Positions 45,913-55,064 of a stretch of 64,000 nucleotides of DNA are shown in pieces. A program made the translations under genes and the position numbers. Source of the DNA: Bacteroidetes bacterium B1(2017) (lineage in GTDB: Bacteria > Bacteroidota > Bacteroidia > UKL13-3). The DNA lies in the NCBI GenBank assembly GCA_002256395.1, contig NKJG01000002.1, forward strand, positions 335,098 through 399,097. The letters are read 5' to 3'. The notes beneath the pieces are model-generated. The model did not search any database. It was given only the letters and a program-made list of their open reading frames with translations, and was not told the origin of the DNA. How positions within the stretch are numbered: position 1 is the first letter of the stretch; each line of letters opens with the position of its first letter.

Positions 45913-45988
45913 ATGTTCGAATGGTATTAATAAACGCAAACATAGGTATAATCTATAACAGAATTAGCCTTTGGTTCGAATCAAAAAT

Positions 45989-47857
45989 ATGAGAAAAAAT
46001 ATCCTTAAAAATGTAGCAGTAGCTATTTTATTCTTGAGTTTTGCCATTACTGTAACTGCTCAAACCAAGCGCCCAGGTAAGAAACCCGCTTACCAAACAG
46101 AACAGGAAAAGGCTCTTAGAAATGCCAGCAAAACAGAGCAGCTATTCAAGACCTCACTTCATAAAATGGTACCCAATAATATTGTTTTACCAGGTGAGTT
46201 TGAAGAATCGCAAGCAGTTGCTATAAGCTGGAGTTTTGATTACGATGCTAATGGTAACCCAACAGGAGTTGATTTAACAACCGTTTATGGCGATGTATCT
46301 GCTCAATTAGCTGATGCCATTCAAAAAGAATGTACCGTTTGGATTAGAGTTTTATACAATGGCGATACGACCAAAATCTTGAACTTTATGACAGCTAGAG
46401 GCACGCCTCTTAAGAATTATAAGTTTATGGTTACTAGTGGCGACGATTGGTGGACGCGTGATTATGGCCCAATGGCCTTTTATTCTAAGAACCTAGATAG
46501 CATTGGCTTTGTGGATATGAAATACTATGATGGCAGAGATTACGATAATGTTTTTCCGGCACAAATGGCTGCAGCCATGGGGTATGAAAACTATGTTACG
46601 CAACTAAACTCAGAAGGTGGTAACCTTATGGGAGATGGATATGGACGATTGTTTTTTAGTGATGTCATTCCAACTATCAATGGAGAGAATGGCGTGCACT
46701 CTTCGCCATGGAGCCAACAACAAACTTTTGATACCTTAAGGCAAATTTTTAACACTCCCGATTTAAGCAATTTGGTTTCCTTGAAATGTGATGGAGGAAC
46801 GGGACATATTGATTTATATGTGAAGCTAATGGATGAGCAATCTTTAATAGTAGCGCAATATCCATCACAGATTACTGCTAACGATAAACAAATTATTGAG
46901 GATAATTACCAATATCTATTGGGTTTAAAATCAACCTATGGAAGGCCATTTAGAATTTTTAGAGTAGAGCATCCTACAGACGATAATGGCAATCATACAG
47001 TAAGAACATGCAATCAATTAAACAACGATGCACGTAATTTTATAAATGGATTAACAGTAAATGGCAGCTTCATTTTTCCATCGTATTATGATGGTAAAAC
47101 TGGCAATGCAGCGCAACATGCAAGAATTATGGCCTATTACAAGAAGTTGTTTCCAGGATATAAAATTGTTCCAATTGATAGCAGAGATTTATCTCCTTTA
47201 GGTGGCGCCATCCATTGTATTACCATGCAAATTCCGGTGGAAGACCCAATTCGTTTTTGGCATCCAAGTGTAGATGGAATAGTACCTGCTTTGCCAAAAT
47301 ACCATATCGTTTCTAAAATTGATACAAAGTCGGGTGTGCAAAATGCGGCCTGTTATTGGGTAAAGAACAATGATACAACTTGGAATAAAGTTAGCTTAAC
47401 AGATAGCAGTGGTTATTGGGTTGGCGATATTGAAAATGCTAAGCTACAAGGAAGCGATAGTGTGTATTATTATTTGGAGGCAAAAAGCAATTCGGGTAGA
47501 ACCTCTACGAAGCCTTTAAACGCAAAAGCTGGAGGTTATTACCAAATGCGTTTAACCTATGCAACAGCCCAAAATGACGTATTGATTGAAAGCACCAATC
47601 ACTTGTTTAACGCTTGGCCAAACCCAGCAAGCGACCATGTTACATTTGGATTTAAGTTGATTGAAACAGCACAAATAAAAATTCAATTGAGAGACCTAAA
47701 CGGCAAATTACTTCAAGAAATTGACCTTGGAAATAAGGCTGAAGGGAATCACCAAACCAGCATTCAAACAAGCAACTATCCTGCTGGAATCTATTTATAC
47801 CAAATGCTTGTGAATGATGTACCTTTGATGGGTAAGAAACTAGTTTTACAAAAATAA
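45989..47857 (+). CDS. secreted peptidylarginine deiminase-like protein with T9SS tail
   Basis: From the ATG at 45989 the product has 622 residues: a signal peptide to TVTAQ25, a PAD_porph/agmatine deiminase-fold domain (about 65-420), a linker with an Ig-like beta domain, and a type A T9SS tail (WPNPASDHVTFGF, YPAGIYLYQML, GKKLVLQK). Catalytic residues match the layout of P. gingivalis PPAD: Trp155-x-x-Asp158 in DDWWTRDYGP, His273-x-Asp275 in GTGHIDLYV, Asn358, and Cys410 in GGAIHC. PPAD citrullinates C-terminal arginines of proteins; agmatine deiminase is the alternative reaction. The domain order (catalytic, Ig-like, CTD) is that of PPAD. Confidence 0.85.
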   Translation: MRKNILKNVAVAILFLSFAITVTAQTKRPGKKPAYQTEQEKALRNASKTEQLFKTSLHKMVPNNIVLPGEFEESQAVAISWSFDYDANGNPTGVDLTTVYGDVSAQLADAIQKECTVWIRVLYNGDTTKILNFMTARGTPLKNYKFMVTSGDDWWTRDYGPMAFYSKNLDSIGFVDMKYYDGRDYDNVFPAQMAAAMGYENYVTQLNSEGGNLMGDGYGRLFFSDVIPTINGENGVHSSPWSQQQTFDTLRQIFNTPDLSNLVSLKCDGGTGHIDLYVKLMDEQSLIVAQYPSQITANDKQIIEDNYQYLLGLKSTYGRPFRIFRVEHPTDDNGNHTVRTCNQLNNDARNFINGLTVNGSFIFPSYYDGKTGNAAQHARIMAYYKKLFPGYKIVPIDSRDLSPLGGAIHCITMQIPVEDPIRFWHPSVDGIVPALPKYHIVSKIDTKSGVQNAACYWVKNNDTTWNKVSLTDSSGYWVGDIENAKLQGSDSVYYYLEAKSNSGRTSTKPLNAKAGGYYQMRLTYATAQNDVLIESTNHLFNAWPNPASDHVTFGFKLIETAQIKIQLRDLNGKLLQEIDLGNKAEGNHQTSIQTSNYPAGIYLYQMLVNDVPLMGKKLVLQK

Positions 47858-47875
47858 GTAGCGCATATATTGAAT

Positions 47876-48628
47876 ATGAAAACTAAAACAAACCGTAAAG
47901 ATTTTATCAAAACCTCTGCCCTATTGGGTTTAGGAGCATTAACCTTTGGCGTAAATGCGGAGCCGATAGTTGCTGAACCAACAGCAAAGGAAGCCGATAG
48001 TAAGCCAACAAATGGCAAATATGAACTACCAGCACTAGGATATGCTTATAATAGCTTAGAGCCATTTATTGATGCCCAAACCATGGAAATTCATTATAGC
48101 AAACACCATCAGGCGTATATCAATAAATTAAACGAGGCTATGGATAAAGAACCTAGTTTAAAAAACAAAAGCATAGAGGAGTTATTGCTGAACCTAGCCT
48201 CTGTGCCAGCAAGTGTTAAAGGTGCAGTGCGCAATCATGGTGGTGGGCATTGGAACCATAGTTTCTTTTGGAAATCATTAAAAACAGGAACATCAATGGG
48301 TTCAGAATTTACCAAATTGGCTACAGCTTCTTTTGGAGACATTGAGAATTTTAAAACCACCTTTGAAAAGGTTTCTATGGGTGTATTTGGATCTGGATGG
48401 GTATGGGTTATATTGCAAAACAAGCAATTAAAGATTGTTACCTCAGCCAACCAAGATAATCCATTAATGGATGCCGCAGCGGTTCCAGAAATGATGCCTA
48501 AAGTGATTTTAGGAATAGATTTATGGGAACATGCCTACTATTTAAAACACCAAAATAAGCGAATTGACTATGTAACGGGCTTTTGGAATGTAGTAAATTG
48601 GGATGAAATTGAGGGACTTCTGAAGTAA
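47876..48628 (+). CDS. exported Fe/Mn superoxide dismutase
   Basis: The ATG at 47876 gives 250 residues. The first 25 (TNRKDFIKTSALLGLGALTFG) look like a Tat-type signal with Arg-Lys instead of Arg-Arg. The SOD domain follows: YELPALGYAYNSLEPFID, MEIHYSKHHQAYINKLN, GGHWNHSFFWKSL, WVWVILQN, and IDLWEHAYYLKHQNKR, with all four metal ligands (His, His, Asp, His). It removes superoxide, here in the periplasm or outside, which is less usual than the cytoplasmic form. It is 18 bp downstream of the deiminase-like gene and may be co-transcribed. Confidence 0.93.
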   Translation: MKTKTNRKDFIKTSALLGLGALTFGVNAEPIVAEPTAKEADSKPTNGKYELPALGYAYNSLEPFIDAQTMEIHYSKHHQAYINKLNEAMDKEPSLKNKSIEELLLNLASVPASVKGAVRNHGGGHWNHSFFWKSLKTGTSMGSEFTKLATASFGDIENFKTTFEKVSMGVFGSGWVWVILQNKQLKIVTSANQDNPLMDAAAVPEMMPKVILGIDLWEHAYYLKHQNKRIDYVTGFWNVVNWDEIEGLLK

Positions 48629-52078: not shown

Positions 52079-53176
52079 TTGAACCTGCGAATAGTATTTC
52101 TTTCTGTTGTATTGTGCTTATTGCTTTCGCCAGCATATGCCCAACCTACTGTATTGGGTACAGATGCATTTAATTATAATACCTATTCCACCTACAATTT
52201 AAGCACATATGGTAAACTTAGATCTTACCGAGGTTTAGCGGCAAATAGTGCGTTAAGTGGCTTGGCAAAATGGGAGTTTGCAACAGGTACTGCTGCCGCC
52301 ACAAATTATTCTACCAATTGGCGGCCCTATTTTTCATCCACTGCTATTCCAGCTTTCGATAGTATTATTGACCCCTTGTTAACCGCAGGTTCGGCTAGGT
52401 GGAATACAAGTTTTGGTGGGCAAAGTGGATTTTTACCTGCCATCATTGCCGGTAGATATTATACCTTTAACATTGGTGATAATGGAGGTGCCAATAATTA
52501 TATGGCAGTATGGGAAACTAATTTTAATCCTGCAACCATTAGTTCTATCACCCAAAGTCCAATTACAATTTGTAGCAGTGGCAGCGATGTGAGTGTAACC
52601 ATAAATGCCAATCAAAGTTTAAACGCTGCAGAGAAAGGATATTTACGTTATTCATCGAGTGCAACGTTTACAAGCAGCAGTTTGGTTCAGATAAGCTTTA
52701 CCGGAACATCTGGAACTGCAACCATTCCAAACCCTGGTTCAGGAACAATTTATTACTATGTATTTACGTCAAAATTAGCCCTGAGCCAATTGGCACCAAG
52801 CGGTGTTGTTAATGAAACCTATTGCGATTTAAGCACCTTAAGTATGAATAATAATAGTGGAGCAAATTATTCTTTTACTGTTGTTGTAGGTACTGTTCCC
52901 TCGGCATTAAGTTTTACTCCTACCAATGCGTGTAATGGTATAGCCACAACCTTTACGGCTTCTGCCACCAATGCCGATTTATATGATTGGAATTTTGGTG
53001 CAGGGTTTATAGGTTTGGCTAGCGGTAATACGAGCATTCAAACACTTTCAACAGGAACAATATCTGTAACCTTACGAACCAAAAACAATACGAGTGGATG
53101 TGAAAAAACGCTTACACAAAGTGTAACAGTTAACCCTGTTCCCTCTACACAAACAATTAATCCAAATACAAACTAA
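52079..53176 (+). CDS. secreted Ig/PKD-like protein without sorting domain
   Basis: Starting at a TTG (52079), the product has a signal peptide (IVFLSVVLCLLLSPAYAQ) and 345 mature residues rich in Ser, Thr, Asn and Ala. The N-terminal 150 residues resemble a choice-of-anchor-type surface module (WRPYFSSTAIPAFDSIIDPLL, YYTFNIGDNGG). Two Ig/PKD-like units follow, the last starting VPSALSFTPTNACNG. It ends abruptly with VPSTQTINPNTN and has neither a type A nor type B T9SS domain. First gene of a three-gene unit. Confidence 0.75.
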   Translation: MNLRIVFLSVVLCLLLSPAYAQPTVLGTDAFNYNTYSTYNLSTYGKLRSYRGLAANSALSGLAKWEFATGTAAATNYSTNWRPYFSSTAIPAFDSIIDPLLTAGSARWNTSFGGQSGFLPAIIAGRYYTFNIGDNGGANNYMAVWETNFNPATISSITQSPITICSSGSDVSVTINANQSLNAAEKGYLRYSSSATFTSSSLVQISFTGTSGTATIPNPGSGTIYYYVFTSKLALSQLAPSGVVNETYCDLSTLSMNNNSGANYSFTVVVGTVPSALSFTPTNACNGIATTFTASATNADLYDWNFGAGFIGLASGNTSIQTLSTGTISVTLRTKNNTSGCEKTLTQSVTVNPVPSTQTINPNTN

Positions 53177-53210
53177 AAAATCAAACACATAACAATTTAA
53201 TTTAAACATC

Positions 53211-54005
53211 ATGAAAAACATCAACACAAAATTGGTACTATTAATTGGATTAATGGTACTTGGATTCACTCAAATTGCCAATGCTCAAAAGAAAATGTGG
53301 GAAGGAAAATCGTACAACTTTGGCGTTACAAACAACGCCCCAAATACTTATTTATGGAGCACAACAGGCTTAGCATCTGGCCTTACAGTAACAACAAGTA
53401 CAGGTAGTGCGACAACCTCTTTCGACATTACTTTTAGCAACTCTAATACTACCTCTGCAACAGGTACTTTGCGTTTAACAGAAACTGCAACAGGTAGCTG
53501 TTCTAGAGATAATGATTTAACTGTAACCGTGTTTCCATATCCAGAGTTTTCGGCTATGAGCGCAACTAATTTTTGTGCGGCTTCAGCAACATTACCTTCA
53601 AGTGTAACCATTACCTCTTCTAATTTTGCTAACATTAAAGGTGTAACAGCAAACGGTAATAGTTTAACCATTGGCTACCAATTATACGATGGTACTAATA
53701 CTCCAATTTTAACTGCGGGTGCTTCTGGAACAGTTTCATTAACAACAGGTGCTTCGGCATCAACCTCTACTGTTAATTTAAGTGGAACCCAAAGAACAGA
53801 TTTACTTACAGTATTAGGTGGTTTATCTGCTGGTACCTATACCTTAAGAGTGAGTTCTGTTACTACAAATCCAGCCACTGTTGCAACCGAAGCAGGTTCT
53901 GTAGTAAGTGGATATTTTGTATCAGGTAATGCCAGTGTATTAGATATTTTAAGCATAACTATCAACTCAGTTCCTTCGGCTAATACCATTACTCCTACTA
54001 ACTAA
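53211..54005 (+). CDS. secreted Ig-like protein, C-terminal tail shared with upstream gene
   Basis: A signal peptide (KLVLLIGLMVLGFTQIANAQ) precedes about 240 residues with an Ig-like unit (SYNFGVTNNAPNTYLWSTTG) and a second Thr/Ser/Ala-rich beta domain containing one cysteine pair at most. The last residues are VPSANTITPTN, similar in sequence and position to VPSTQTINPNTN of the upstream protein. No T9SS domain is visible. It is probably a surface structural or adhesive protein. 34 bp separate it from the upstream gene and 18 bp from the downstream one. Confidence 0.72.
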   Translation: MKNINTKLVLLIGLMVLGFTQIANAQKKMWEGKSYNFGVTNNAPNTYLWSTTGLASGLTVTTSTGSATTSFDITFSNSNTTSATGTLRLTETATGSCSRDNDLTVTVFPYPEFSAMSATNFCAASATLPSSVTITSSNFANIKGVTANGNSLTIGYQLYDGTNTPILTAGASGTVSLTTGASASTSTVNLSGTQRTDLLTVLGGLSAGTYTLRVSSVTTNPATVATEAGSVVSGYFVSGNASVLDILSITINSVPSANTITPTN

Positions 54006-54023
54006 GCTTTAGCTTAATTTACT

Positions 54024-55064
54024 TTGTTTCTTAAAGCAACTAAATTATTAGTTGCACTTCTCTTTGCGTTCAGTTACAGCGCTAGGTCTCAAATTATTGA
54101 TACCGTTTGCGTAGGACAAACTGATGCACGCTATGAAGTGCCTTTAACTGCAGGGTCTACTTATTTGTGGATTTTGGAGAAAGGCGGAGCTGTGCATACA
54201 GGTCAAGGTTCAAATAAAATTTCTGTTGATTGGCAAAGTAATCCAGGAATTTACACTTTAAAAATTGTTGAACAAAATAGCAGTGGCTGTTGGGGCGATA
54301 CCGCTTATGGCCAAATTGTTTTAGTTAGTAAATTGCCCGTTAAATTAGTAGGTCCGCTTAAAGTATGCCAAGGAGATACAGCCATATTTTATGCCTCTGG
54401 AGCCGATAGATTTATATGGAGCGATGGTTCAACTGGAAATTACTTTGTTTTTAAGGATACAGTAAATACAGAGTTGTATGTAATTGGTAAATCAAATACC
54501 TGTATTAGTGATACCATACGAACACTTATACAAATGAAAGAACAACCCATAGCTTCCTTCAATCATGCGCCTAATTATTGGATAATAGACGAAAAAATAA
54601 CCTTAAGTTATACCGGAGATAAAGCCGATTTATGGAAATGGTTTATCAATGATTCGTTAATTGATACAGGCAAAAACAAGATTGTTCTGCATTATCCAAA
54701 AGATACAGGAGTATTGGTAATTTCCTTAGTTACCCAAAATAACTCGGGTTGCAATGATTCTGTAACATATGTAGGCTATGTGTTTGATAAATCTAAAATA
54801 TTTGTACCTACTGCCTTTACCCCTAATGGCGATGGAACGAATGACTATTTTGGAATTGTTGCCTTTGGCTTTACAGAAGCTAAGGTTATAATCACCAATA
54901 GAATCAATATTCCGGTGTTTCAATCAGATGATGTAAATTTTAAATGGGATGGGACATACGATGGACAAAAATGTAATCCAGGTGTGTATTTCTATCAAAT
55001 AATTCTCATTGATGCCAACGGCAACGACCAAAAGATCAGAGGAGAATTTACCCTATTAAATTAA
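54024..55064 (+). CDS. secreted Ig-like protein with type B (gliding-motility-type) sorting domain
   Basis: Signal peptide (LLVALLFAFSYSARSQ), then Ig/PKD-like units (DTVCVGQTDARYEVPLTAGSTYLW, VCQGDTAIFYASGADRFIWSDG, FNHAPNYWIIDEKITLSYTG). The C-terminal 85 residues are a gliding-motility-associated (type B) domain: FVPTAFTPNGDGTNDYFGI, KWDGTYDGQKCNPGVYFYQI. Type B cargo is exported by T9SS with a PorP/SprF-like partner, none of which is in the window. It is the only one of the three genes with a sorting domain, and may export or anchor the other two. Confidence 0.82.
   Translation: MFLKATKLLVALLFAFSYSARSQIIDTVCVGQTDARYEVPLTAGSTYLWILEKGGAVHTGQGSNKISVDWQSNPGIYTLKIVEQNSSGCWGDTAYGQIVLVSKLPVKLVGPLKVCQGDTAIFYASGADRFIWSDGSTGNYFVFKDTVNTELYVIGKSNTCISDTIRTLIQMKEQPIASFNHAPNYWIIDEKITLSYTGDKADLWKWFINDSLIDTGKNKIVLHYPKDTGVLVISLVTQNNSGCNDSVTYVGYVFDKSKIFVPTAFTPNGDGTNDYFGIVAFGFTEAKVIITNRINIPVFQSDDVNFKWDGTYDGQKCNPGVYFYQIILIDANGNDQKIRGEFTLLN

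Follow-up and report, generated by a model that had tools for sequence, protein, structure and literature searches.

The window analysed here, a 64,000-nt stretch of the Bacteroidetes bacterium B1(2017) genome, carries three adjacent forward-strand genes, ORF1 to ORF3, between positions 52079 and 55064. The places and ends of these genes, and of the tails that close the first two, were verified against the sequence-only reading that had drawn attention to them. Their parts are as follows (+, forward strand):

52079..53176, +, ORF1, putative tip, 365 aa: signal peptide, N-terminal part, one PKD-like unit and C-terminal tail; orthologues in loci L012-L015 and L114
52895..52927, +, VPSALSFTPTN, in-chain counterpart of the tail in ORF1, followed by the PKD-like unit starting ACNG
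53138..53173, +, ORF1 tail VPSTQTINPNTN, proposed donor strand into ORF2
53211..54005, +, ORF2, putative middle subunit, 264 aa: signal peptide, W.G-type N-terminal acceptor domain, second domain and tail
53286..53546 (limits approximate), +, ORF2 N-terminal acceptor domain, a distant relative of that of ORF3
53970..54002, +, ORF2 tail VPSANTITPTN, proposed donor strand into ORF3, modelled on the L015 homologue
54024..55064, +, ORF3, putative anchor, 346 aa, TTG start: signal peptide, acceptor PKD_6-like domain, further Ig-like part and type B sorting domain
54090..54338, +, ORF3 N-terminal acceptor domain, with a Pfam PKD_6 match
54801..55058, +, T9SS type B sorting domain of ORF3 (CHU_C / TIGR04131)

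Judged by eye, all three N-termini are signal-peptide-like (ends ..YAQ, ..NAQ and ..RSQ) without a lipobox cysteine. Searches of Pfam and NCBIfam agree with the initial view that ORF3 alone has a sorting domain: it passed the cut-offs of both type B models (CHU_C, 7.7e-14, 52 bits, cut-off 27; TIGR04131, 4.6e-13, 49.1 bits, cut-off 35), and no T9SS sorting domain was found in ORF1 or ORF2 up to E 0.1. ORF1 has no acceptor domain either. Where VPSALSFTPTN had been seen to precede an Ig unit starting ACNG, a PKD_4-like unit was indeed found (residues 274-351, E 0.0096, below the curated cut-off). The PKD_6 match of the ORF3 acceptor starts only at profile position 13 of 82, which was an early hint that the first (A) strand of this domain may be absent. 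Further upstream in the window lie two genes with family assignments that are our assumption: 45971-47857, presumably a secreted, peptidylarginine/agmatine deiminase-like protein with a T9SS type A-like C-terminal end, and 47870-48628, which we take to be superoxide-dismutase-like, with a signal-like N-terminus.

A search for similar gene sets ahead of type B genes had been suggested as a check, and such sets were found in other genomes. A search with ORF2 gave matches in 9 of 147 genomes, the window's own included. A probe alignment (A3) was made of 11 N-terminal domains taken from following proteins; some homologues of the ORF2 acceptor match it with E about 3e-5 to 8e-5. By reading of its matches, 20 of 64 genomes in the window's family have small ORFs whose N-terminal domain it picks out. 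In a class sample of 237 genomes, N-terminal A3 matches occurred in 13, of which 10 lie outside the window's family (f3, f5, f38 and f56), and the loci there have the same layout as the window set; a further candidate in G634 falls outside the loci examined. A search around G067 added G561, and a survey of 32 regions round other type B genes (up to 681 aa) added one more set (L126, identical with L162). When 394 genomes from the whole phylum were searched, small ORFs with an N-terminal acceptor turned up in the window's own genome only; with just 12 candidates scored per genome this search was too shallow, and the class search found more. Plasmid records gave no match. The resulting sample comprises 44 loci from five families of the class, mostly relatives of the window, and many are closely related, such that counts over them are not independent.

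Across these 44 loci, 91 ORFs open with a PKD/Ig-like acceptor domain right after the signal peptide, 34 with a type B domain and 57 without. All but three of the latter end in a tail (54 of 57), the exceptions being frameshifted (L011), fitted with a type A domain (L156) or cut by a contig end (L157). Putative tips, which have a tail and no acceptor domain, stand beside most sets (38 matched, 3 discarded by eye). They include CUB-domain proteins (L160, L161), PKD_6-containing proteins (L099, L151, L155) and one with a lamin-tail match below cut-off (L115); one large gene in L099 and one in L101, with weak internal profile hits only, were counted as tips. The tip gene is found downstream of the anchor in L151, L152, L154 and L155 and not ahead of the set, and L161 encodes two tail proteins without an acceptor domain, so one set may hold two alternative tips. 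In eight sets of one genus (L102, L104-L110) the last gene encodes a tail protein and no anchor adjoins it; each of the eight genomes has an acceptor-bearing type B gene elsewhere. For two of them (G061 and G063, loci L093 and L094) we found a type B acceptor gene with no donor beside it. Donor sets without anchor and anchors without donor in the same genomes suggest unlinked partners.

One acceptor protein, in L156 (G065, reverse strand, rc 373-1467), has the type A domain TIGR04183 in place of a type B domain and is flanked by tail proteins ending ..IIQHRN and ..AIQHKD.

The tails go beyond chance, since sets elsewhere keep them (..LTPTN with ..ITPTN; ..SINAN with ..PIIAN), a second set on another contig of the window's genome has its own (..PIPILYHY and ..ATSAIMHY), and the pattern is enriched. 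Among the 57 acceptor proteins lacking a type B domain, 54 fitted a loose tail pattern, versus 42 of 475 other ORFs; the two counts were made with slightly different patterns, end letters fitted to the set, and a pattern picked in part after the tails had been inspected. Four-gene sets have tails ..INSY, ..IIAY and ..IKHY, then the anchor. Outside the window's family (e.g. ..TSPIFHN, ..TTTIFHD, ..TSSIYHY) the usual tail ending is I[FYQ]H, in some cases followed by a final N, D or Y. Loss of the tails in relatives was named beforehand as an outcome that would speak against the donor-strand idea; instead they are kept in five families and also on unrelated tips (PKD ends, CUB proteins, the weak lamin-tail match). 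Four type B proteins, ORF3 among them (..FTLLN), match the loose pattern too, which we read as chance, as the end of a sorting domain can look alike.

Tails that enter W.G-type acceptors have no His near their end, and other tails often end I.H[NDY]. The counts are 0 of 16 (13, plus three no-His cases read as W.G) versus 36 of 60, an association confounded by ancestry.

To characterise the acceptor domains, we used a repeat profile of 97 positions (consensus ..NVTVNPKPAPAITG AASVCAG..), for which large ORFs in other loci supplied 107 distinct internal repeats. Acceptor domains start at profile position 26 (median), and a start at position 12 or earlier was seen in 0 of 72 acceptors versus 35 of 38 other PKD domains of the same loci. 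Aligned in this way, the acceptor domain is a PKD domain without its A strand. On the profile, the tails (such as SVTVFPKPTPSAIKHY and ITINSVPSANTITPTN) line up with the stretch just ahead of the break. When the protein's own 20-residue tail was placed ahead of the acceptor, the profile start shifted from 27 to 10-12, with a gain of 3.60 bits for 43 pairs of the window's family and 5.64 bits for 16 pairs of other families; random C-termini gained 0.49 and 0.42 bits, respectively (Wilcoxon p 2e-10 and 3e-5). These values come from the 59 of 76 pairs that could be scored, the remainder falling below 25 bits or giving no hit, and one of those scored (L157) does not represent a real donor. For a single pair the gain is small: in a separate comparison, none of 40 random C-termini equalled the own tail in only 17 of 56 pairs (from a set of 59, of which 3 went unscored). 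When tails were swapped between sets, a set-specific fit was not seen in the window's family, where tails of other sets gained 4.13 bits compared with 3.60 for the own tail. Since foreign tails fit as well there, the test speaks to fit and not to partner specificity. W.G-type acceptors, such as that of ORF2, score poorly on the repeat profile.

The initial view was that the tails look like the cut-off first strand of an Ig-like unit, and they match, in register, the strand that the partner lacks. What marks a donor-strand fibre can be recognised at the level of sequence, namely an acceptor without one strand and a free strand of its partner that fits the gap. That a conserved tail and an absent strand exist is close to certain, and the proposed joining of subunits through the tails is well supported by these alignments.

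We also looked at structure models for the homologous set of L015. When the ORF2 homologue is modelled alone, its tail has no strand (coil, pLDDT about 50), and tandem-Ig chains mostly end at residues 248-257 of its 262. As all three L015 genes share one frame, a single chain running from the last PKD unit of the tip to the anchor's C-terminus could be obtained by translating the stop codons (TAA) as Gln; it was modelled with AlphaFold2, using 14 further alignment rows. In this read-through model both tails form strands (94-97 and 365-367), which cover only 3-4 residues per tail; the pTM is 0.42, residues 96-129 have pLDDT below 50, and the covalent link between donor and acceptor forces their closeness. 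Fourteen of 50 listed PDB entries align, by first and last residues, from residues 355-362 through the anchor. Residues 355-362 lie within the tail of the ORF2 homologue, and the anchor's own mature start is near 411. Among the entries that align from the tail are titin I67-I69 (2rjm), CD22 (5vkj), ICAM-1 (2oz4) and fragments of GhpA (9flu, 9fls). In the model, the second tail is thus taken for the opening of the first Ig domain in the following protein, which is support, not proof. The conjecture that a free strand could complete a partner's fold gains from both the strand-less partner domain and this model, and the core of the donor-strand idea is supported.

The window's genome has a T9SS: we found SprA at 2518 bits, six PorP/SprF genes and 20 type B matches. 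Two of the 20 lie at contig starts, where the upstream side is unreadable. Near-identical fragments of a type B gene stand at the starts of contigs C9 and C119 of G000 (L055 and L054 being these loci), probably a repeat that broke the assembly. Type B substrates usually, though not always, have a cognate PorP/SprF gene adjoining them. A PorP/SprF gene directly follows the anchor in L150, L158, L160, L161 and L162 and stands one gene further on in L099 and L101; none of the genome's six copies is beside ORF3. Orphan type B substrates with a common shuttle are known in F. johnsoniae, according to the available text of PMC12618676. T9SS substrates are inferred to exit the translocon CTD-first (available text of PMC10994853), which would allow the anchor to pull a chain behind it; tip and middle are probably exported in tow.

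Taken together, we propose that ORF1, ORF2 and ORF3 form a chain as its tip, middle subunit and anchor, that C-terminal donor strands hold this chain together, and that it is likely to be exported in tow; we put the probability of this reading at roughly 0.75. ORF1 and ORF2 each finish with a free strand that is equivalent to strand A of a PKD/Ig repeat, and the PKD/Ig-like domain that directly follows the signal peptide in ORF2 and in ORF3 is missing this strand. ORF2 would then have its first domain completed by the ORF1 tail, and ORF3 by the ORF2 tail, giving one non-covalent Ig chain from three polypeptides. Assembly would take place in the periplasm, and the whole chain would be exported CTD-first, towed by the type B domain of ORF3. 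At the surface that domain would anchor the whole chain to a PorP/SprF carrier, and ORF1 would form the outer tip.

The tails might instead be short sorting signals for a T9SS part or the PorP/SprF carrier, and not strands that complete a partner. They are short and C-terminal, their end residues are common to unrelated proteins, and outside the window's family most share the I[FYQ]H ending. We consider this improbable, because it leaves unexplained both the absence of the A strand in the proteins next in line (0 of 72 versus 35 of 38) and the register fit. Even less credible is gene fission, by which one long multi-Ig protein would have been divided, leaving the tails as functionless remnants. 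The gene order does resemble that of an Ig array interrupted after strand A and before strand B (the consensus runs ..KPAPAITG, then AASVC..), but the tails persist in five families, occur on unrelated tips, and stay where the order has changed and the tip lies downstream of the anchor. It is also conceivable, though we think it unlikely, that the donor-strand joining is real and takes place on the surface or is confined to the periplasm, with ORF1 and ORF2 placed by another route: co-export is what we infer, and some sets have no neighbouring anchor. Against this stands the linkage of acceptors to sorting domains, type B in 34 cases and type A in L156, along with the further acceptor-bearing type B gene in every genome with an anchor-less set.

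Compared with known systems, the set resembles T9SS type B substrates in the type B domain of its anchor, in the PorP/SprF gene near several sets and in a genome with SprA and six PorP/SprF copies, but the substrates in the literature consulted, as far as the available texts go, are single chains, whereas the anchor of the present sets appears to have further proteins attached that lack a sorting domain. Like the type V (Mfa1/FimA) fimbriae of Porphyromonas, for which donor-strand assembly with tip and anchor proteins has been proposed (available text of PMC5789003), it would be a Bacteroidota surface fibre with tip and anchor. Those fimbriae are made from lipoprotein precursors, and a protease removes the first strand and so opens the groove; in the window set no lipobox was seen, and the groove would be open from the start, as the gene itself lacks the strand. 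In chaperone-usher pili and TasA fibres, too, one subunit lends a strand that completes its neighbour's fold. The chaperone-usher donor strand is N-terminal and comes with a chaperone and usher (available text of PMC5789003), and donor-strand joining is reported for TasA (PMC9674648); in the window set, by contrast, the donor would be C-terminal, with a T9SS domain on the anchor only. The GhpA grappling hook protein of Aureispira is likewise an Ig-like array, and its fragments, identified by entry title, align with the joined model (Z about 9-11), but it is a single very long polypeptide, with residue numbers above 5000 in those titles. An SprB-type gliding operon was considered as the closest model and rejected: the window set does not have the gene content of such a locus (sprC, sprD, giant sprB, sprF), and in two genomes, loci that we take to be sprCDBF-like lack such tails and differ in layout from the window set; their sprC-like gene itself ends in type B-like sequence.

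A literature search returned Mfa/Fim fimbriae, TasA, general T9SS work and unrelated papers, and no description of a C-terminal donor-strand chain with a T9SS anchor was found in its scope, which mostly left aside subscription papers and preprints. If correct, the proposed mechanism would explain how secreted proteins without a sorting domain arrive at the surface of T9SS bacteria, and C-terminal donor-strand joining would be added to the known modes of fibre building. Many proteins that now lack annotation could be recognised as tips or middles from two marks, a short tail and a first domain that is truncated. It is somewhat more probable than an even chance that a general donor-strand coupling code operates in Bacteroidota, in which proteins that carry no T9SS signal snap tail-to-head onto PKD domains lacking the A strand and a single sorting domain, type B or occasionally type A, tows the whole train across the outer membrane, so that tips on a common anchor can be exchanged.

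Finally, ORF3 (at 54024) and most anchors of the window's family begin with TTG or GTG: in 19 of 23 anchor genes the start range contains no ATG (22 scored, plus L015 taken from its copy L006). An ATG is present in all middle genes that could be scored, and this difference could keep anchors scarce relative to middles.
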